64,000 nucleotides of DNA from an uncultured Paracoccaceae bacterium. GTDB taxonomy: Bacteria > Pseudomonadota > Alphaproteobacteria > Rhodobacterales > Rhodobacteraceae. Positions 3,455 through 30,325 of this stretch are shown here, piece by piece. The translations under genes and the position numbers were made by a program. Every line of letters starts with the position of its first letter. Position 1 is the first letter of the stretch. Location: NCBI GenBank assembly GCA_947501555.1, contig CANMWG010000001.1, positions 1,178,001 to 1,242,000 of the forward strand. Direction: 5' to 3'. The notes below the pieces were generated by a model that made no database searches, was not told where the DNA came from, and was given only the letters and a program-made list of their open reading frames with translations.

Positions 3455-3605
3455 ACCCGCTCTCTTTCATCCGGACTATGACCGTCGGCTCAGGCGTCGC
3501 ACCTGATCTGCTAGACCCCGGCCATTGACCGGGCGCTCGCGGGCTCGTTTTTGCAAACATACCGCCGGTGGGGAATTTCACCCCGCCCTGAGAACGTGCC
3601 GCCCG
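3455..3605 (-). promoter_or_regulatory. FMN riboswitch (RFN element)
   Basis: On the minus strand the conserved RFN blocks appear in order: CAGGGCGGGGTGAAATTCCC, then ACCGGCGGTAT, AGCCCGCGAGC, a variable arm with TCAGGTGCGACGCCTGA, GCCGACGGT and finally AGTCCGGATGAAAGAGAG. This is the aptamer that binds flavin mononucleotide. It ends about 90 bases before the ribN start, so FMN would be expected to repress importer expression, through transcription or initiation control in the stretch before the GTG. Confidence 0.95.
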
Positions 3606-22734: not shown

Positions 22735-23919
22735 TCAAGCGGTCACATCGTGGTCGTAGAGCCACCCCATCCGGTTGATGAAAGCATTCGGCGCAATTTT
22801 TCCCATGGTCCGCAACGCGGTGTGGGCTGCGATGCGTTGCGGTCCCTGTAAGTGGTAGTTTCGGGCATTTTTGTTGGCCGCATTGATGGCATGAATAACG
22901 CGGGGACGCCGGAGGTTTTGATATTGCCGCAGTGCATCCGCAATCGATGCATTCTCATTACAGCAGCGCGCGAGCACATAGGCATCCTCAATTGCCAGAT
23001 TTGCCCCCTGCGCGAGGAAGGGCAATGTCGGATGGGCCGCATCGCCTAAAATTGCACTTGATCCCACGAACCAATTCGCGGCAACAGGATGACGGAACAG
23101 CCCCCACAGATTGACGTAATCGACCTTTGCAAGGATCTCTTTGAGCTCCCAGCATGTGTCGGCAAAGGCTGCCTGCAAATTTGCTGGATCATCAGCGTGA
23201 TGCCACCCTTCGTCGGCCCACTGACCACGCTTTTGCACCGCGACGATATTCAGCCGGTTGTTGGGCAACGGATAGGTGACAACGTGACGGCGTGGCGCCA
23301 TCCAGATGCGAGCGACAGCTGGCATATCGGGGGCGTTGATCATAGCGCGCCAAGCGACATGACCCGTAAAGAATGGCTCGCGCGGTTTATTCAATCCAGC
23401 TCTGACCACAGACCGCAAACCGTCCGCGCCAATAGTCAGTGTTGGCCGCACGACACCAGCGCCTGCTGTGAACGACCCGTCAGGTGCAATCTGCAATACC
23501 CGTGCATCTAAGACGACCTTTACACCCTTCGCCTCGCAAGCGCGGGCCAAAAGATCAATCAATGCGGCACGGTGAAGAAACCGATAGGAAGGGTCCTGCC
23601 CAGTCAGATCAAACTGCGCAATGGTGCTACCTTTGACGGCATCCATGGGGATAACGGCCTGCGCTTTCAGGCCGGACACCTGCAACGCGTCGCGGAGCCC
23701 CAATCGGTTCAACGCACGCGCACCATTTGGGGTAATCTGCACACCAGCACCGACTTCCGTCAGGGCTGGGGCTTGTTCATAGACTGTAACGTCAGCGCCC
23801 TTGCGGGCAAAACCCAAAGCGGCTGTCAGACCGCCGATACCACCTCCAATAATGGCAATATCGCGACCAGCGTTATGATCGATCTCAGTCGTCGCGATGG
23901 ACCTTTTCACGGCGCTCAT
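22735..23919 (-). CDS. FAD-dependent monooxygenase, salicylate-hydroxylase/UbiH-like
   Basis: About 394 residues. The Rossmann FAD site is DIAIIGGGIGGLTAALGFAR, GADG appears as TIGADGLRSVVR, and the second FAD motif is ILGDAAHPTLPFLAQGANLA. It would hydroxylate a small aromatic or other ring using NAD(P)H; the substrate is unknown. The N-terminal start is uncertain: ATG 23919 overlaps the dksA end by 35 bases, and no better start lies closer to the FAD motif. Probably cotranscribed with dksA. Confidence 0.82.
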   Translation of the reverse strand: MSAVKRSIATTEIDHNAGRDIAIIGGGIGGLTAALGFARKGADVTVYEQAPALTEVGAGVQITPNGARALNRLGLRDALQVSGLKAQAVIPMDAVKGSTIAQFDLTGQDPSYRFLHRAALIDLLARACEAKGVKVVLDARVLQIAPDGSFTAGAGVVRPTLTIGADGLRSVVRAGLNKPREPFFTGHVAWRAMINAPDMPAVARIWMAPRRHVVTYPLPNNRLNIVAVQKRGQWADEGWHHADDPANLQAAFADTCWELKEILAKVDYVNLWGLFRHPVAANWFVGSSAILGDAAHPTLPFLAQGANLAIEDAYVLARCCNENASIADALRQYQNLRRPRVIHAINAANKNARNYHLQGPQRIAAHTALRTMGKIAPNAFINRMGWLYDHDVTA

Positions 23920-24310
23920 GACGTTCTTGGGCTTCAAGGCTCATGGTCGCGATCGGACGGGCATCAAGACGCTTGAGCGAAATCGGTTCGCCCGTCTTTT
24001 CGCAATAGCCGTATTCACCTTCGTCAATCCGGCGCAGGGCGGCGTCAATCTTGTTGACCAGCTTGCGTTGCCGGTCACGGGTGCGCAGCTCCAGCGACCG
24101 ATCCGTTTCTTCAGAAGCACGATCAGCAACGTCAGGGATGTTGCGTGTTTGGTCCTTCATGCCGGCCACGGTATCGCGGCTATCCTCCAGCAATTCACTT
24201 TTCCAGTTCAGCAGTTTGCGACGGAAATACTCTGTTTGGCGTTCATTCATGAACGGCTCATTGTCGGCGGGGCGATAATCGTCCGGAAGAAACACTTCTG
24301 CTTTCATCAT
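23885..24310 (-). CDS. dksA: RNA polymerase-binding regulator DksA, zinc-finger-less type
   Basis: About 141 residues. A coiled coil (about residues 20-95) carries the tip motif PDVADRASEETD, then the globular end YGYCEKTGEPISLKRLDARPI. DksA enters the RNA polymerase secondary channel and, with ppGpp, tunes rRNA and amino-acid promoters. The classical CxxC...CxxC zinc site is reduced to one cysteine: CEKT and SLEA replace the two pairs, as in the Rhodobacter-type protein. GAAGGG precedes the tandem ATGs at 24310 and 24307. Confidence 0.92.
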   Translation of the reverse strand: MMKAEVFLPDDYRPADNEPFMNERQTEYFRRKLLNWKSELLEDSRDTVAGMKDQTRNIPDVADRASEETDRSLELRTRDRQRKLVNKIDAALRRIDEGEYGYCEKTGEPISLKRLDARPIATMSLEAQERHERREKVHRDD

Positions 24311-24486
24311 GATACCCTTCAATTCCGGCATTTACAGGCCAGCACCCCACGCCGATATGCTTGATTTTGAGGCGGGTTTACTCCGTTGATCGTCCGCTGT
24401 CACCCCCTCTTTTTGGCCACATCGCGGGGTGTTGATGATCCGGAACGACCTGCTAGGTTGCCGTTAAAATCAAAGGGTTTGACATC

Positions 24487-25326
24487 ATGCAATTCACCGG
24501 CACTGAAACCTATGTCGCAACTGACGATCTAACGATGGCTGTGAACGCTGCGGTGACGTTGGAACGACCATTATTGGTCAAGGGCGAACCAGGAACAGGC
24601 AAGACAGAACTGGCCCGTCAGGTCAGCGCAGCATTGGGCCTGCCGATGATTGAATGGCACGTCAAGTCCACAACCAAAGCGCAACAAGGCCTCTATGAAT
24701 ATGACGCCGTCAGCCGGTTGCGCGACAGCCAATTAGGCGACGCGCGTGTGCAGGACGTGGCCAACTACATTAAAAAGGGCAAGCTTTGGCAGGCTTTCGG
24801 CGCGGACGGCAAAGTTGTTTTGCTGATTGACGAGGTCGATAAGGCCGACATCGAATTTCCCAACGATCTGTTGCAAGAACTCGACCGGATGGAATTCCAC
24901 GTCTACGAGACCGGCGAGACCGTCAAAGCCATTCACCGCCCCATTGTCATCATTACATCCAACAACGAAAAAGAGCTGCCTGACGCGTTTCTGCGCCGGT
25001 GCTTTTTCCACTACATCCGCTTTCCTGACATCGACACGATGCGCAAAATCGTTGAGGTCCACCATCCAGGTATAAAGGATGCCCTACTGACGGCCGCCCT
25101 GACCCAATTTTATGAAATCCGCGAGACCACAGGCCTCAAGAAAAAGCCCTCTACATCCGAGGTGCTGGATTGGCTCAAACTTCTGCTTGCTGAAGATCTC
25201 ACCGCAGACGATTTGAAACGGGATGGGGCCAATGCGCTACCCAAGCTGCATGGTGCGTTGCTGAAGAACGAACAAGACGTTCATCTGTTCGAGCGTCTTG
25301 CGTTTATTGCCCGGTCGGGGCGCTAA
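24487..25326 (+). CDS. MoxR-family AAA+ ATPase
   Basis: A 279-residue AAA+ protein: Walker A GEPGTGKTELAR (about 37-48), Walker B VVLLIDEVDKAD (about 117), sensor 1 IITSNNEKELPDAF and arginine finger in FLRRCFFHYI. MoxR ATPases work with a VWA-domain partner to remodel or mature target complexes; that partner is encoded at 27397-28584 in the same run. It starts an eight-gene same-strand block. Confidence 0.93.
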   Translation: MQFTGTETYVATDDLTMAVNAAVTLERPLLVKGEPGTGKTELARQVSAALGLPMIEWHVKSTTKAQQGLYEYDAVSRLRDSQLGDARVQDVANYIKKGKLWQAFGADGKVVLLIDEVDKADIEFPNDLLQELDRMEFHVYETGETVKAIHRPIVIITSNNEKELPDAFLRRCFFHYIRFPDIDTMRKIVEVHHPGIKDALLTAALTQFYEIRETTGLKKKPSTSEVLDWLKLLLAEDLTADDLKRDGANALPKLHGALLKNEQDVHLFERLAFIARSGR

Positions 25327-25414
25327 GCCATAAATGACCGACCGCACATCCATTTGATTGGTCACCCGCCCAGTCGGAGCTATTATCTGGTCGATCCAAG
25401 AAAGAAGAAGAAAC

Positions 25415-25864
25415 ATGACAGGCAGCACGATCAGGCCGCTACGGCAATCAGACAGACCCCATTGGGAACGGCTATGGACAGGATATCTGGAATTCTACAA
25501 GACATCCGTGCCTGCCGCAGTCTATGACACGACTTTCGCACGTCTTTTGGGGGATGATCCTCAGGATTTTCACGGCCTCATTGCAGAGGTTGAAGAAAAA
25601 CCAGTCGGGCTCGTGCACTTTGTCTTTCATCGGCACTGCTGGCGCATTGAAAATGTATGCTACTTGCAAGACCTATTCGCTGACCCAAACATGCGCGGCC
25701 AAGGCATCGGGCGTAAACTGATCGAAGGTGTTTATGCGGCTGCAGATACCGCTGGTGTCCAAAACGTCTATTGGATGACAAGCGAAGACAATCACGTCGG
25801 TCGCAGACTGTATGACCGTGTTGGGCAAGTGAGCAACTTTATCAAATATCAGAGGCCCGCATGA
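25415..25864 (+). CDS. GNAT-family N-acetyltransferase
   Basis: A 149-residue GNAT. The acetyl-CoA loop is MRGQGIGRKLIEG, preceded by the strand VCYLQDLFADP and followed by VYWMTSEDNHVGRRLYDRVG. The acceptor (small molecule or protein) is unknown. ATG 25415 follows a GAAGAAGAAAC purine-rich ribosome site. Its stop overlaps the next start in ATGA, tying it to the DUF2927 lipoprotein. Confidence 0.9.
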   Translation: MTGSTIRPLRQSDRPHWERLWTGYLEFYKTSVPAAVYDTTFARLLGDDPQDFHGLIAEVEEKPVGLVHFVFHRHCWRIENVCYLQDLFADPNMRGQGIGRKLIEGVYAAADTAGVQNVYWMTSEDNHVGRRLYDRVGQVSNFIKYQRPA

Positions 25865-27207
25865 AGCGTTTTGCTGCACTCGCCCTATCGCTTTTCGCGG
25901 CCTGCGCCGAAGTGCCCGTAGGACCCGAACCTATTCGCCTAGAGTTTACCGAAATGCGCAGCTTTGCTGCACAAAGCCCCGGGCCATCGCAGCGCCCAAA
26001 TTCGGAGATTGCGCTCGATTTCATCGACCTGGCTTTTCGGATGGAAAGCGGGCGGGAACTGCCCGTCTTTACCCGCTTTGAAGAGCCCATCACTGTCCGC
26101 GTTGCCGGTGAAGTCCGCCAATCCATGCAAACCGACCTTTCGGCCCTGCTGAAACGGCTGCGCGATGAGGCGCGCATCGACATTCGGATGACCGAAGACC
26201 CTGAGGCCAACATCGTGATCGAAGCGGTGCCCTCACGCGCCTTGCAGCGGGTCGCACCCAATGCTGCCTGTTTTGTGGTACCCCGTGTGAGCAGCTGGGC
26301 AGAGCTGAGGGCTGCACGAAATTCAGGCGTTCTGGATTGGGCTACCTTGCGGCAACGTGAAAAGGCCGCAATCTTTTTGCCCGCAGACGCCGCGCCACAG
26401 GAAATTCGGGACTGTCTGCACGAAGAACTGGCCCAAGCGCTTGGGCCACTTAACGATCTCTACCGGCTGCCAGACTCGGTGTTCAACGATGACAATATCC
26501 ATGCCGTTTTGACGGGTTTTGATATGCTGATCCTGCGGGCTTACTACGCGCCCGAGCTGCAAAGCGGGATGACAGAAGCCCAAGTCGCCGAACGGTTACC
26601 GCGAATCCTGGCGCGGCTGAACCCGCGCGGCCAACGTGCCGGCGGAGAGATCCCCTCAAGCACATCACGCGCATGGATCACGGCGATTGAAACTGCGCTC
26701 AGCAACGCATCGTCCGGGGCAAAACGCAGGCAAGCGGCCGCGCGGGCCATCGCGATCGGTCAAAGTTTAGGGTGGACTGGCGCGCGTGAAGGATTTGCCA
26801 ATTATGCCTTTGGGCGGCTCCAAATCGGCAATGATGCAACACTGGCCCTCGGTGCGTTTAACGCTGCAGGGCGGGCCTACGGGCAAAGTGCGGTTACAAA
26901 CATCCACTCCGCCCATATCGCCGTGCAATTGGCCGCTTTCACACTCATATCTGGGGATACAGAGGCCACAATCGTCATCACCGACGACGCCATTGCAATC
27001 GCGCGTCAGCACGAGAACGCAGCCCTTCTAGCACTGTTGATGATGTTCAAGGCCGAAGCGCTGGACCTGCAAGGCAAGACCGAAGAAGGTACAGCACTGC
27101 GACTGGACAGCCTTGGCTGGGGGCTCTATGGCTTTGGGTCGCGACAGGAAGTGATTGACAGGCTCAATGAAATCGCCTCGCTGCCACCGCAGATACCGCC
27201 AAGTTAA
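25861..27207 (+). CDS. DUF2927 lipoprotein with TPR-like C-terminus
   Basis: 448 residues. The lipoprotein signal MKRFAALALSLFAAC places the acyl-modified cysteine at residue 15. The DUF2927 core contains NAACFVVPR, DCLHEELAQALGPLNDLYRL and DSVFNDDNIHAVL; the HEE-like motif recalls a metallopeptidase but activity is unproven. About residues 280-440 are helical repeats like TPRs. Positioned between GNAT (ATGA overlap) and a small membrane protein. Confidence 0.88.
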   Translation: MKRFAALALSLFAACAEVPVGPEPIRLEFTEMRSFAAQSPGPSQRPNSEIALDFIDLAFRMESGRELPVFTRFEEPITVRVAGEVRQSMQTDLSALLKRLRDEARIDIRMTEDPEANIVIEAVPSRALQRVAPNAACFVVPRVSSWAELRAARNSGVLDWATLRQREKAAIFLPADAAPQEIRDCLHEELAQALGPLNDLYRLPDSVFNDDNIHAVLTGFDMLILRAYYAPELQSGMTEAQVAERLPRILARLNPRGQRAGGEIPSSTSRAWITAIETALSNASSGAKRRQAAARAIAIGQSLGWTGAREGFANYAFGRLQIGNDATLALGAFNAAGRAYGQSAVTNIHSAHIAVQLAAFTLISGDTEATIVITDDAIAIARQHENAALLALLMMFKAEALDLQGKTEEGTALRLDSLGWGLYGFGSRQEVIDRLNEIASLPPQIPPS

Positions 27208-27220
27208 CAAGGTCTTCACC

Positions 27221-27397
27221 ATGATTTATCCACTCGCAGGTCTTATCTTCGGCGCGCTGTTCGGGGCTTTTCGGGCCAAATTGCGCGGTGGCAAGGTCAA
27301 GGACCTGCTGCAATGGGGGGCCGCTTTTGCAATCATGTTCGGGCTGATCGGGTTATTTGCACTGATCTTCATTGAACGCAGTTACGTCTCGGGCTAA
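27221..27397 (+). CDS. small two-helix membrane protein
   Basis: 58 residues with two hydrophobic helices (IYPLAGLIFGALFGAF and AAFAIMFGLIGLFALIFI) joined by a basic loop RAKLRGGKVKD. Starts 13 bases after the DUF2927 gene, and its TAA overlaps the ATG of the VWA gene. Conserved position suggests it anchors or assists the MoxR/VWA machinery; unnamed. Confidence 0.78.
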   Translation: MIYPLAGLIFGALFGAFRAKLRGGKVKDLLQWGAAFAIMFGLIGLFALIFIERSYVSG

Positions 27398-28584
27398 TGT
27401 TTCTTCCCTTCTTTGACAATCTACGCGGCCAAGGCATCCCGGTGTCGCTGCGCGAATTCTTGTCATTTCTGGAAGGGATGAAGGCCGGATTGGCGACTTA
27501 CGACATTGAAGCCTTCTACTTCCTTGCCCGCACGATCATGGTCAAAGACGAACGGCACCTGGACAAATTTGATCGGGCCTTTGCGGCCACATTCGAAGGG
27601 CTAGAAGCGATCCCCGATGAGGCTGTGCTGAACGCGGTCGACATTCCCGCAGAATGGCTTGAAAAGCTGGCGGAAAAACACCTGACCGAAGCAGAGAAAG
27701 CCGAAATCGAGGCCATGGGCGGTTTCGACAAGCTGATGGACACGCTGAAAAAACGGCTTGAGGAACAAAAGGGGCGGCACCAAGGCGGGTCCAAATGGGT
27801 GGGCACGGCAGGAACCTCACCCTTCGGGGCTTATGGATACAACCCCGAAGGGGTGCGGATCGGCCAGAACGAAAGCCGCCACCAGCGCGCAGTCAAGGTT
27901 TGGGACAAGCGTGAATTCAAGAACCTCGATGACACAGTTGAGCTGGGCACGCGCAATATCAAAGTCGCCTTGAAACGCCTGCGCTCATGGGCGCGCGACG
28001 GGGCGGCAGAAGAGCTTGACCTGAACGGCACCATCCGGGCGACAGCGGAACATGGCTACCTTGACGTGCAAACCCGACCCGAGCGGCGCAACGCGGTCAA
28101 GGTGCTGCTTTTTCTTGATATCGGCGGCTCAATGGACCCGCATATCAAAGTCGTTGAAGAACTGTTCAGCGCGGCCAAATCAGAATTCAAGCATTTCGAA
28201 TATTTTTACTTCCACAACTGCCTTTATGAAGGTGTGTGGAAAGACAACCGGCGGCGCTGGGACGCGCAAACGCCAACATGGGACGTGTTGCGGACCTATG
28301 GATCTGATTACAAATGCATATTTGTCGGGGATGCGAGCATGTCGCCCTACGAGGTCGCTTTTCCCGGCGGTGCCAATGAGCATTGGAACGAAGAAGCCGG
28401 GCAAACCTGGCTGACCCGCGCGCGCGATAAATGGCCAAACCATCTGTGGATCAATCCGCTCGATGAACGCTATTGGCGCTACACCCAATCCATCCAGATG
28501 ATACAAGAAATTTTCGGTGCAGACCGGATGGTGCCCATGACACTTTCGGGTATCGACGCCGGAATGCGGCTCTTGGGGCGTTAG
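27397..28584 (+). CDS. VWA-domain protein of the CoxE-like, MoxR-associated type
   Basis: 395 residues with an N-terminal helical region (LPFFDNLRGQGIPVSLREFL) and a C-terminal VWA domain. The metal-ion-dependent adhesion site appears as FLDIGGSMDPH, a DxGxS variant. YFYFHNCLYEGVW and VGDASMSPYE follow. It is the expected partner of the MoxR ATPase. A basic linker (about 150-200) precedes the VWA. Starts on the stop of the small membrane gene. Confidence 0.92.
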   Translation: MFLPFFDNLRGQGIPVSLREFLSFLEGMKAGLATYDIEAFYFLARTIMVKDERHLDKFDRAFAATFEGLEAIPDEAVLNAVDIPAEWLEKLAEKHLTEAEKAEIEAMGGFDKLMDTLKKRLEEQKGRHQGGSKWVGTAGTSPFGAYGYNPEGVRIGQNESRHQRAVKVWDKREFKNLDDTVELGTRNIKVALKRLRSWARDGAAEELDLNGTIRATAEHGYLDVQTRPERRNAVKVLLFLDIGGSMDPHIKVVEELFSAAKSEFKHFEYFYFHNCLYEGVWKDNRRRWDAQTPTWDVLRTYGSDYKCIFVGDASMSPYEVAFPGGANEHWNEEAGQTWLTRARDKWPNHLWINPLDERYWRYTQSIQMIQEIFGADRMVPMTLSGIDAGMRLLGR

Positions 28585-28587
28585 GAG

Positions 28588-28959
28588 ATGATGATGTGGC
28601 TTCGCATAAAAGACCTCTGGCGGCACAACCGTCTGGCGCTGTTGGCCTTTGTGGGGGTCGTATGCGTAGCGGGGTTCTTTGGTTTCAAATCTGCCAGCCA
28701 ATTCATCTATTGGAACGATCCCCGGCACCAGGATCAACCGCTCGCCGGCTGGATGACGCCGCGCTATGTTGGACAATCCTACAACATTCCGCCTGAAATC
28801 GTGCTGCAGGCCCTTGATATTGTAAATGACGGGCCGCCACGCCGGATCACCCTTGATCGCCTCGCAGATGAACAAGGGATAACATTAGATGAGATGCAGA
28901 CACGCGTAGAATCCGCAGTGCAAGATTGGCGTGACGCATCCCAAAGGGCTGACCAATGA
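28588..28959 (+). CDS. hypothetical single-pass membrane protein
   Basis: 123 residues: a basic N-terminus, one helix (RLALLAFVGVVCVAGFFGF), then an outside domain with GWMTPRYVGQSYNIPPEIVLQ and a helical C-terminus. The periplasmic part looks like a small recognition domain. It starts 3 bases after the VWA gene and ends in an ATGA overlap with the DedA gene. Unnamed; the context is the MoxR run. Confidence 0.75.
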   Translation: MMMWLRIKDLWRHNRLALLAFVGVVCVAGFFGFKSASQFIYWNDPRHQDQPLAGWMTPRYVGQSYNIPPEIVLQALDIVNDGPPRRITLDRLADEQGITLDEMQTRVESAVQDWRDASQRADQ

Positions 28960-29588
28960 CCGAGGCAATTCTGGCGCTTGCAGTTGACTACGGCATACCG
29001 CTCTTGTTCTGCGTTACATTCCTCAGTTGTCTGGCCCTACCCGTCCCGTCATCTTTGCTCATGCTGGTCATGGGTGGGTTCGCCGCCACCGAGGATTTTT
29101 CGCTTGAGGTCGTTGCCGCTGCGGCATTTTGCGGTGCGGTGATTGGCGACAACACCGGTTACTGGATTGCTCGCGGCCTTGGCGAGCGGTTGAATGATTG
29201 GCTGACTGCCCGACCCAAACGTGCTGCGTTGCGTAACAAAGCCGAAGCCTTCATGCAAAAATGGGGCGGATCAAGCGTGTTCTTTTCTTGCTGGCTCGTG
29301 GCTCCACTTGGCCCAACGGTCAACTATGTCAGTGGTCTGTCGCGGTTCAGTTGGCCACGTTTTGCCCTTTGGGGCATGATTGGTGAAGTGTTCTGGGTCA
29401 CGATCTACGTCGGGCTTGGCTATGCATTTGCCGATCAAATCACAGAAGTCTCAAGCCTTTTGGGCAATGTGTCAGGCTTCATCGTTGCAGTTGTTGTGGC
29501 CATCGGGTTGGGGATATGGTTGCTGCGTGCGAGTAAAGCGCGTGACAAGACGAGGGCTGGCAAAACAAATCCGGGATCCCATATTTAG
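28956..29588 (+). CDS. DedA-family (VTT-domain) membrane protein
   Basis: 210 residues, about five membrane segments. VTT motifs: FLSCLALPVPSSLLML, then GAVIGDNTGYWIARGLGERL and FFSCWLVAPLGPTVNYVSGL with the conserved Arg region. DedA proteins are linked to lipid-carrier flipping and proton-dependent envelope homeostasis. Starts overlapping the preceding gene and lies 3 bases before the M48 peptidase. Confidence 0.88.
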   Translation: MTEAILALAVDYGIPLLFCVTFLSCLALPVPSSLLMLVMGGFAATEDFSLEVVAAAAFCGAVIGDNTGYWIARGLGERLNDWLTARPKRAALRNKAEAFMQKWGGSSVFFSCWLVAPLGPTVNYVSGLSRFSWPRFALWGMIGEVFWVTIYVGLGYAFADQITEVSSLLGNVSGFIVAVVVAIGLGIWLLRASKARDKTRAGKTNPGSHI

Positions 29589-29591
29589 GTC

Positions 29592-30275
29592 ATGGCGATC
29601 CTGCTACCCATTCTTTTGGCCGTTCTCTATGGCCTGGCAAGCTACCGCTTTTCGGTCTGGCGGTCGTCTGCGAGATTGGACAGTCAATCCACCGAATTGA
29701 TCGACGCCGACCTTAACGAACTGGCAGATCAAATGGCAGTTGCGATCGATCTGCCCAGGATCACGGTCTATATCTATGAAATTGAGCCGGTGAACGGGTT
29801 CGCCTCTGCCGATGGGCGGATCTTCATCACGCGGGGGTTTTTTGACAGACATAAGCGTGGTGAATTCACATCGGAAGAAATGGCAAGTGTAATCGCCCAC
29901 GAGCTGGGACATGTTGCACTGGGGCATTCCCGGAGGCGGATGGTCGATTTTACCGGGCAAAATGCGGTGCGCGTAGCCCTTGGGATGTTCATCAGCCGCT
30001 TCATCCCGGGTGCGGGCCCATGGATTGCCGGTCAATTGATGCGTCTGATGTCGGCACGTCTATCGCGCAGTGACGAATTTGAGGCAGATGCCTACGCCTC
30101 GGCGCTCTTGATCAAGGCGGGCATCGGGACGGGGCCGCAAAAGAATTTATTCGCAAAATTTGAGAAAATGAAAGGGCCGCATGCAGCGTCACCACCTGCA
30201 TGGCTGCGTAGCCACCCCAAATCCCATCAACGCATTGCTGCAATAGAGGCCAATGACGCCAGGTGGCAGGCCTAG
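29592..30275 (+). CDS. M48-family metallopeptidase (HtpX/Oma1-like core)
   Basis: 227 residues with an N-terminal membrane helix. The zinc motif is VIAHELGHVALGHS (HExxH with L), and the third ligand glutamate is in SDEFEADAYASAL. No TPR or second membrane hairpin as in HtpX or BepA; this is a compact form. It would act on envelope proteins. It ends the block that starts with moxR and is followed by the twin-hairpin element. Confidence 0.88.
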   Translation: MAILLPILLAVLYGLASYRFSVWRSSARLDSQSTELIDADLNELADQMAVAIDLPRITVYIYEIEPVNGFASADGRIFITRGFFDRHKRGEFTSEEMASVIAHELGHVALGHSRRRMVDFTGQNAVRVALGMFISRFIPGAGPWIAGQLMRLMSARLSRSDEFEADAYASALLIKAGIGTGPQKNLFAKFEKMKGPHAASPPAWLRSHPKSHQRIAAIEANDARWQA

Positions 30276-30277
30276 AG

Positions 30278-30325
30278 TCAAACTTTCTTGGAAAGTTTGA
30301 ACGCAAAATCTCACAGAGATTTTGC
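30278..30325. repeat. 48-bp twin-hairpin element, copy 2
   Basis: TCAAACTTTC/GAAAGTTTGA around TTG, a 2-base spacer, then GCAAAATCTC/GAGATTTTGC around ACA. It sits between two convergent genes and encodes the last codons and stop of the PIN gene. Same length and order of hairpins as at 18044-18091. Confidence 0.7.

Follow-up and report, generated by a model that had tools for sequence, protein, structure and literature searches.

A MoxR/VWA gene block of Rhodobacterales is probably a mosaic of separately inherited units

Among described pairs of a MoxR-family AAA+ ATPase and a VWA protein, NorQ/NorD places a finger of the VWA protein inside the pore of the AAA+ ring, and a twisting motion powered by ATP opens the client so that metal can be inserted, according to the sections of the two papers at hand (PMC13036017, PMC9976466). 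MoxR-vWA conflict systems, as the portion of the source at hand describes them, derive from CoxD-CoxE (PMC7159879). Here we analyze a block of eight genes in a 64,000-nucleotide stretch from an uncultured Paracoccaceae bacterium (contig CANMWG010000001.1; the whole stretch is called the window). In this block a MoxR ATPase and a CoxE-like VWA protein share one strand with a GNAT acetyltransferase, a DUF2927 lipoprotein, a DedA protein, an M48 peptidase and two small proteins of 58 and 123 amino acids (aa). An earlier note on this stretch had read the eight genes as a single envelope-remodelling module. Gene content, linkage, co-inheritance and independent loss, all read directly from related genomes, reveal instead that the block is probably a mosaic of separately inherited units and not one machine.

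Compared with NorQ/NorD of Paracoccus denitrificans as the available sections present it, the window likewise has a VWA partner in the same neighbourhood as a single-module MoxR of ~30 kDa; the two co-occur obligately, and the C-terminal half of VWA has a site resembling the metal-ion-dependent adhesion site (MIDAS). Unlike the 70-kDa NorD, the window VWA protein has 395 aa and carries Gly in place of the second MIDAS Ser (DxGxS), and no nor genes stand among the annotated window neighbours. Like CoxE, it exceeds the VWA_CoxE cut-off (PF05762; 33.5 bits vs 26.4); unlike with CoxD/CoxE, which serve the maturation of CO dehydrogenase, no cox structural genes were found in the eight block genes and two flanking proteins scanned. 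The ATPase/VWA couple is also that of the MoxR-vWA conflict systems as far as the consulted portion of their description goes, but no third component was found and the bpMoxR match stayed below its cut-off (20.4 vs 27). We rejected a defence system as a candidate: no PADLOC system was called, MoxR had weak AAA+ matches (best IetA, 6.9e-8, 30 bits), the CapP match of M48 was weak (5.2e-5), and NCBIfam MadB_ATPase scored 118 vs a cut-off of 475. A literature search for MoxR with DedA or M48 returned nothing relevant by title and abstract.

Inheritance of the MoxR/VWA pair and of the DUF2927 gene

We searched 149 near-complete genomes of the order (completeness 99-100%) for the block proteins, with thresholds of E<=1e-40 for VWA, 1e-60 for MoxR, 1e-35 for full-length DUF2927, 1e-25 for DedA and 1e-3 for the 123-aa protein. 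MoxR and VWA were both present in 144 genomes, both missing from five (G293, G348, G366, G372 and G427) and never found singly, which bears out the earlier note's view of them as an established pair; one of the 144 MoxR matches is partial (G343). In four of the five MoxR/VWA-less genomes the best MoxR matches are paralogues (33-36% identity), and no match reaches E<=1e-10 in G366. The distance between MoxR and VWA is at most 8 kb in 117/144 genomes. Their co-inheritance is independent of linkage, both being kept in up to 27 genomes that have them apart (contig breaks may explain some of these; a contig ends 197 bases from MoxR in G425). MoxR and VWA are a genuine functional and obligate pair, of the same kind as NorQ/NorD and CoxD/CoxE.

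The Walker A (GEPGTGKT) and Walker B (LLIDE) motifs of MoxR are conserved at >=90% in 94 aligned sequences, window included, and the MoxR profile matched Midasin (1e-8) among solved-structure sequences, where the VWA profile returned nothing relevant. In the MIDAS-like D241-x-G-x-S245 of VWA, residues D241, S245, T300 and D312 are invariant in 24 orthologues (T300 and D312 assigned by eye); the second position is Gly243, and is Ser in the DxSxS definition given in the available part of PMC9976466. The predicted VWA structure is poor (pLDDT 54.7).

The inheritance of DUF2927 contradicts a single eight-gene system. Full-length DUF2927 was found in 140/149 order genomes, i.e., in 135 genomes with VWA and in all five without it, and the nine genomes lacking a recognisable DUF2927 all keep MoxR and VWA. 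These nine comprise six of genus g226 together with G370, G402 and G395; eight have no copy near VWA, and the copy of G395 is in place but diverged (38%). One or more matches to the Pfam DUF2927 model occur in 148/149 order genomes (at least two in 139) because most genomes carry another DUF2927 gene elsewhere. Where DUF2927 and VWA are both present, DUF2927 lies upstream of VWA, on the same strand and within 5 kb, in 132/135 genomes. DUF2927 is strongly linked to VWA in gene order, but it is not bound to VWA by inheritance.

The block is flanked upstream by divergent genes for DksA and an FAD monooxygenase (FMO; name by eye), and downstream by convergent genes for an RSP_2648-type PIN protein and an RlmI-like methyltransferase (name by eye). 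At the five MoxR/VWA-less loci, DksA and PIN were found in 5/5, DUF2927 in 5, M48 in 4, and GNAT and the 58-aa gene in 3 each; DUF2927 is in place between DksA and PIN, with moxR and vwa gone from its two sides. The order in G370 and G402 is MoxR, 58-aa, VWA, M48, without DUF2927 and GNAT. In the three genomes of g234, MoxR, VWA with the 123-aa gene and DedA, and GNAT with DUF2927 occupy three separate sites.

On a tree of 118 DUF2927 proteins (built by a quick method, with long branches flagged), the MoxR/VWA-less label requires four changes, at least three of which are forced by well-supported branches; Psychromarinibacter L086 is the sister of G372 and carries the whole block, except that its 58-aa gene was not detected. 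Relaxed constraint on DUF2927 after MoxR/VWA loss, hinted at by long branches, was rejected once identity had been corrected. When DUF2927 identity was regressed on DksA/PIN/RlmI identity across 65 VWA-bearing loci, DUF2927 at the four testable MoxR/VWA-less loci fell +0.75 to +1.98 standard deviations from expectation, i.e., was more alike than expected, and therefore shows no acceleration.

A survey of 289 genomes of the class found VWA in 121, MoxR in 122 (lists compared by eye; the extra genome for MoxR, G052, is cut by a contig end) and DUF2927 in 40. The genomes carrying VWA range widely in size, from 1.4 to 6.5 Mb. Outside the window's family, 26 genomes carry both DUF2927 and VWA, never near each other (by eye; draft contigs). 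We fetched 60 of the 121 VWA loci, 57 of them outside the family. MoxR lies <=210 bp upstream of VWA in 39 of these 57, farther upstream (0.7-5.6 kb, same strand) in 12, and is not so placed within the fetched stretch in 6; DksA falls within the stretch in 8. DUF2927, GNAT, DedA, the 123-aa protein and M48 were found near MoxR-VWA in 0/57 (tblastn, >40 bits), and no DUF2927 was recognised by eye in the open reading frames (ORFs) between MoxR and VWA in distant genomes among the loci listed. An extra conserved MoxR-VWA partner outside the order was likewise rejected as a candidate: ORF clustering over the 60 loci gave housekeeping neighbours only (AlaS 12, RecA 10, DksA 7 and isocitrate dehydrogenase 7 of 60; names by eye), a weak negative, as the ORF picker favoured antisense ORFs in GC-rich DNA and recovered VWA itself in 45/60.

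The fold and zinc-site motif of the DUF2927 lipoprotein

An AlphaFold model of the DUF2927 protein (pLDDT 90.2) comprises a metzincin-like domain (residues ~45-265) and a TPR tail (~267-445), the latter as the earlier note had expected. The tail gave VIA-align Z scores of 14.0 to 17.9 among the matches listed; those matches are TPR structures and include no metzincin, which is not evidence against a metzincin-like fold. Foldseek ranked the matrix metalloproteinase (MMP) MMP-13 first (E 8.7e-3, prob 1.00), and 18 of the 50 matches listed are metzincins (MMPs or myroilysin), none at E<=0.001. The DUF2927 profile found nothing relevant among solved-structure sequences, and DUF2927 is named in no paper of the literature searched.

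At the columns of the zinc-binding motif HExxHxxGxxH the window protein instead reads EExxQxxGxxND: E188, E189, Q192, G195 and N198 fall on H, E, H, G and H. Like metzincins such as MMPs and astacin, DUF2927 combines the predicted fold with a helix that has E189 where the catalytic Glu would be, with G195 and with the loop that comes next, and some members of the family keep HExxHxxG. Unlike metzincins, the window protein has E188, Q192 and N198/D199 instead of the zinc ligands, a TPR tail and a lipoprotein signal (by eye). We read the motif in 31 loci (two own-genome copies plus 29 among the best-match loci listed in the class search): 22 have EExxQxxGxxND, one has EExxQxxGxxGD (L131), five have HExxHxxG (L138-L142, with HELAHGFGFAH in L142), two are otherwise degenerate (L134, L136) and one is unread (L137). 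The five HExxH members exceed the Pfam DUF2927 cut-off (49.8 to 58.7 vs 26.2 bits).

Profile-profile tests against 27 matrixin domains gave 86.5% (E 4.6e-6) for the whole DUF2927 family and 16.5% once the matrixin motif columns were removed, with controls at 0.74 (M48), 0.15 (MoxR), 0.09 (GNAT), 0.21 (VWA) and 0.21 (reversed matrixin). The five HExxH members alone reached 96.8% (43.4% minus the motif columns, 23.8% vs M48). Speaking against the assignment, the majority type alone scored 14.9% (E 1.8e-3) and did not reach the metzincins convincingly; this score does not come from the motif because 14.8% remained without its columns. The window-type profile alone gave 0.99%, no better than its own MoxR control (1.00). 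The metzincin link therefore rests on the fold search and the HExxH members. Taken from the model, the family alignment and the profiles, DUF2927 is a predicted ligand-substituted metzincin-like domain with a TPR tail.

The earlier note had suspected a hidden metallopeptidase in HEELAQALG. The metzincin-like predicted fold upholds part of that idea, and the Foldseek matches, the invariance of H187-E188 in 60 orthologues and the five members with HExxHxxG would all suit an enzyme that uses this HE to cleave envelope substrates. However, the first ligand column holds E188, not H187; H187 lies one column earlier, where other members have V, L, I, Y or A. The remaining ligand columns hold Q192 and N198/D199, Phe takes the position of the Met in the Met-turn (by eye), and HEELAQALG is not an active metallopeptidase motif. 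Because H187 is not in the ligand column, catalysis appears unlikely, and we consider an active DUF2927 peptidase very improbable. The domain most likely binds rather than cuts, as a binding or scaffolding pseudopeptidase. Residues C137 and C185 are also invariant in the 60 orthologues, consistent with a periplasmic disulphide.

Two further observations concern other DUF2927 genes. The window's own genome has a second copy (L001 44-2199; C3 around 246645) that encodes 319 aa directly downstream of a 396-aa TelA-like gene (name by eye), and one genome has seven DUF2927 matches within ~20 kb (G160:C1:46652-66787).

The 123-aa/DedA unit, the looser neighbours and the gene layout

The 123-aa protein was found in 52/149 order genomes and DedA in 51/149. 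In 51/51 cases the 123-aa gene is followed on its own strand by DedA (gap of -1 to 318 bp between matches), and the sole 123-aa match without DedA is weak (G303, E 6.9e-5). Thirty-six of these pairs follow VWA and 15 lie elsewhere, one of them in the MoxR/VWA-less G372. The two genes are a separate two-gene unit. We also compared named relatives, taking the best 80 of 573 confirmed loci by VWA similarity (tblastn; some contigs short); the closest VWA matches among named contigs are from Yoonia and Loktanella, most top ones at 86-93% identity, and put the window inside or close to this part of Rhodobacterales. The unit is optional in the block because these 80 loci include the 123-aa gene in 19 and DedA in 17.

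In 26 aligned DedA proteins, window included, the acidic residue of GDxxGY is kept, the first-tip Glu is Ser and the second re-entrant helix (WLxxPLGPxxN) has no Arg (all by eye). The residue comparison used what we take to be the usual DedA motif. The window protein resembles the DedA/VTT families COG0586, COG0398 and COG1238, as presented in the available part of PMC10127716, in having a VTT domain above cut-off and the GDxxGY acidic residue. Unlike the undecaprenyl phosphate (UndP) flippases described there, it lacks, in its second re-entrant helix, the Arg pair to which Todor and co-workers assign UndP binding, and it is preceded by the 123-aa gene (51/51). An UndP flippase label (COG0586) was rejected because the Arg pair is lacking; the acidic pair that goes with this label is not complete either.

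The other genes are tied to the block more loosely. In the 80 named-relative loci, VWA was found in 80, DUF2927 in 79, MoxR in 76, DksA in 73, M48 in 66, FMO in 61, PIN and RlmI in 60 each, GNAT in 50 and the 58-aa gene, which is under-detected because it is short, in 52. M48 (66/80) is conserved little better than the flanks (DksA 73, FMO 61, PIN/RlmI 60), and is a loose neighbour that usually stands next to VWA. Its HELGH and DExEAD motifs are conserved at >=90% in 99 aligned proteins, window included, the downstream Glu ligand being the one that we presume; with HELGH intact, M48 may be active. GNAT, an optional gene, stays with DUF2927 in all three relocated g234 loci and is absent from 8/9 loci without recognisable DUF2927.

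We next considered 102 VWA loci with >=5 kb on each side, an uneven sample that includes loci fetched for a missing or diverged gene. M48 lies on the same strand in 84, the 58-aa gene was detected in 68 and GNAT in 57. Both flanks have been lost in 17 of the 102, which come from six genera and are therefore not 17 independent events. M48 is kept in 12 of the 17, the 58-aa gene in 11, DUF2927 and DedA in 8 each, the 123-aa gene in 7, GNAT in 2 and MoxR in 0; MoxR counts here are for >300 bits, which omits a partial MoxR in L290. Among VWA loci without DksA and FMO, MoxR >300 bits was found in 0/18, with the same partial match in one. MoxR therefore tends to stay on the DksA side, and VWA to accompany the envelope genes. 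A divergent dksA-moxR arrangement (23885-25326 in the window) is common in Rhodobacterales loci.

The eight same-strand genes and three overlapping junctions reported earlier were confirmed by coordinates (Table 1). GNAT and DUF2927 overlap at ATGA (25861), the 58-aa stop overlaps the VWA start at TAATG (27395-27399), and the 123-aa and DedA genes overlap at ATGA (28956). The widest intergenic gap of the run is 88 bp, between MoxR and GNAT, and the remaining gaps are 13, 3 and 3 bp. Neither terminator-like sites (6 vs a mean of 7.5) nor promoter-like sites (1 vs 3.3) were enriched over shuffles. The eight-gene order exceeds chance, yet unequally across the eight genes.

Table 1. Genes of the block and the zinc-site segment of DUF2927, in window positions. 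Pfam assignments are those above curated cut-offs; the 58-aa and 123-aa proteins have no Pfam match above cut-off.
Feature	Positions	Strand	Basis or remark
MoxR-family AAA+ ATPase, 279 aa	24487-25326	+	Pfam AAA_5/AAA
GNAT acetyltransferase	25415-25864	+	Pfam Acetyltransf_1 9.5e-16
DUF2927 lipoprotein	25861-27207	+	Pfam DUF2927 1.9e-51; lipoprotein signal by eye
DUF2927 residues 181-201, degenerate zinc-site helix and loop (CLHEELAQALGPLND)	26401-26463	+	
58-aa membrane protein	27221-27397	+	two hydrophobic segments, by eye
CoxE-like VWA protein, 395 aa	27397-28584	+	Pfam VWA_CoxE 3.7e-8
123-aa single-pass protein	28588-28959	+	partner of the adjoining DedA gene
DedA/VTT-family membrane protein	28956-29588	+	Pfam VTT_dom 5e-15
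M48 peptidase	29592-30275	+	Pfam Peptidase_M48 1.7e-23

Just 3' of the M48 stop, between the convergent M48 and PIN genes, lies a perfect inverted repeat (TCAAACTTTC/GAAAGTTTGA, 30278-30300; by eye), which is not among the terminator-like sites detected. Elsewhere, the window carries an FMN riboswitch at 3455-3599 on the minus strand (111.7 bits).

Units, rival readings and meaning of the block

The biochemical roles of these units, and the client of MoxR-VWA, we infer as follows. By analogy, the window pair most likely works like NorQ/NorD: a cytosolic AAA+ ring of MoxR and the CoxE-like VWA adaptor would remodel or metallate a client with ATP, a client to which no gene of the neighbourhood points. 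The second unit would be GNAT-DUF2927 with the 58-aa protein, in which the envelope lipoprotein may serve as a binding or scaffolding pseudopeptidase; in the lineage of Rhodobacterales it lies between the genes of the first unit, linked to vwa, which it would not require. The 123-aa protein and DedA would be an optional lipid-transport unit, often placed after vwa, and the M48 peptidase a fourth unit, usually beside vwa.

If the eight genes were instead one envelope-remodelling system, the cytosolic MoxR/VWA motor would reach DUF2927, DedA and M48 at the envelope through the small membrane proteins, and coupled translation would set their stoichiometry. The overlapping junctions fit such a system, as does DUF2927-VWA linkage, which at 132/135 is tighter than MoxR-VWA linkage (117/144), and so does the retention of M48, the 58-aa gene and DUF2927 beside VWA in 12, 11 and 8 of the 17 flank-less loci. 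Some observations weigh against a mosaic: besides the tight DUF2927-VWA linkage, DUF2927 and VWA are inverted as a unit relative to MoxR, M48 and both flanks in L102 (Antarcticimicrobium); independent losses are few (about four for MoxR/VWA and, from genus labels, three genera for DUF2927); and DUF2927, the 58-aa gene and M48 staying with VWA in relocated loci hints at a shared role or expression, for which this linkage is the best remaining evidence. Gene order across relatives, the comparison proposed in the earlier note, upholds the DUF2927-VWA neighbourhood but not a system of all eight genes: moxR is not beside the other genes in up to 27/144 genomes, which comes near to what the note had named as a refutation, and the DedA pair is present in only 51/149. 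Against one system, DUF2927 and MoxR/VWA were lost independently, in 5/5 and 9/9 genomes in the "wrong" direction for a joint machine, block genes were found near MoxR-VWA in 0/57 loci outside the order, and DUF2927 did not accelerate after the loss. We consider one system unlikely.

Slowly changing gene order in Rhodobacterales could alone have kept these genes side by side, and flanks about as conserved as M48 agree with such regional synteny. Yet M48, the 58-aa gene and DUF2927 stay in 12, 11 and 8 of the 17 loci (six genera) from which both flanks are gone, and MoxR/VWA co-inheritance is independent of linkage; synteny as the whole explanation is doubtful. A bolder extension strikes us as improbable: the DUF2927 family would be secreted zinc-less metzincins, their zinc His replaced by conserved Glu/Gln/Asn-Asp, that became a receptor or scaffold of the envelope, equipped with a TPR arm; within Rhodobacterales it would be tied genetically to the VWA adaptor, so that the envelope state is reported across the 58-aa protein to cytosolic MoxR, and a subfamily of DedA proteins would have the 123-aa protein as an obligate subunit not described before. 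The block is most likely a real, partly conserved cluster, i.e., a loosely conserved envelope-gene neighbourhood around an AAA+/VWA client-remodelling chaperone.

The interest of the locus lies mostly in the natural-deletion evidence, the identity of DUF2927 and the DedA partner, and not in a new machine. Natural gene losses separate truly coupled genes (MoxR with VWA; the 123-aa gene with DedA) from merely adjoining ones, and DUF2927 gains a testable identity as a putative ligand-substituted metzincin-like domain, with a TPR tail in the window protein. Because the co-loss of MoxR and VWA is perfect, a search for the client of this chaperone pair, which 121/289 sampled genomes of the class carry, can start from the five MoxR/VWA-less genomes.

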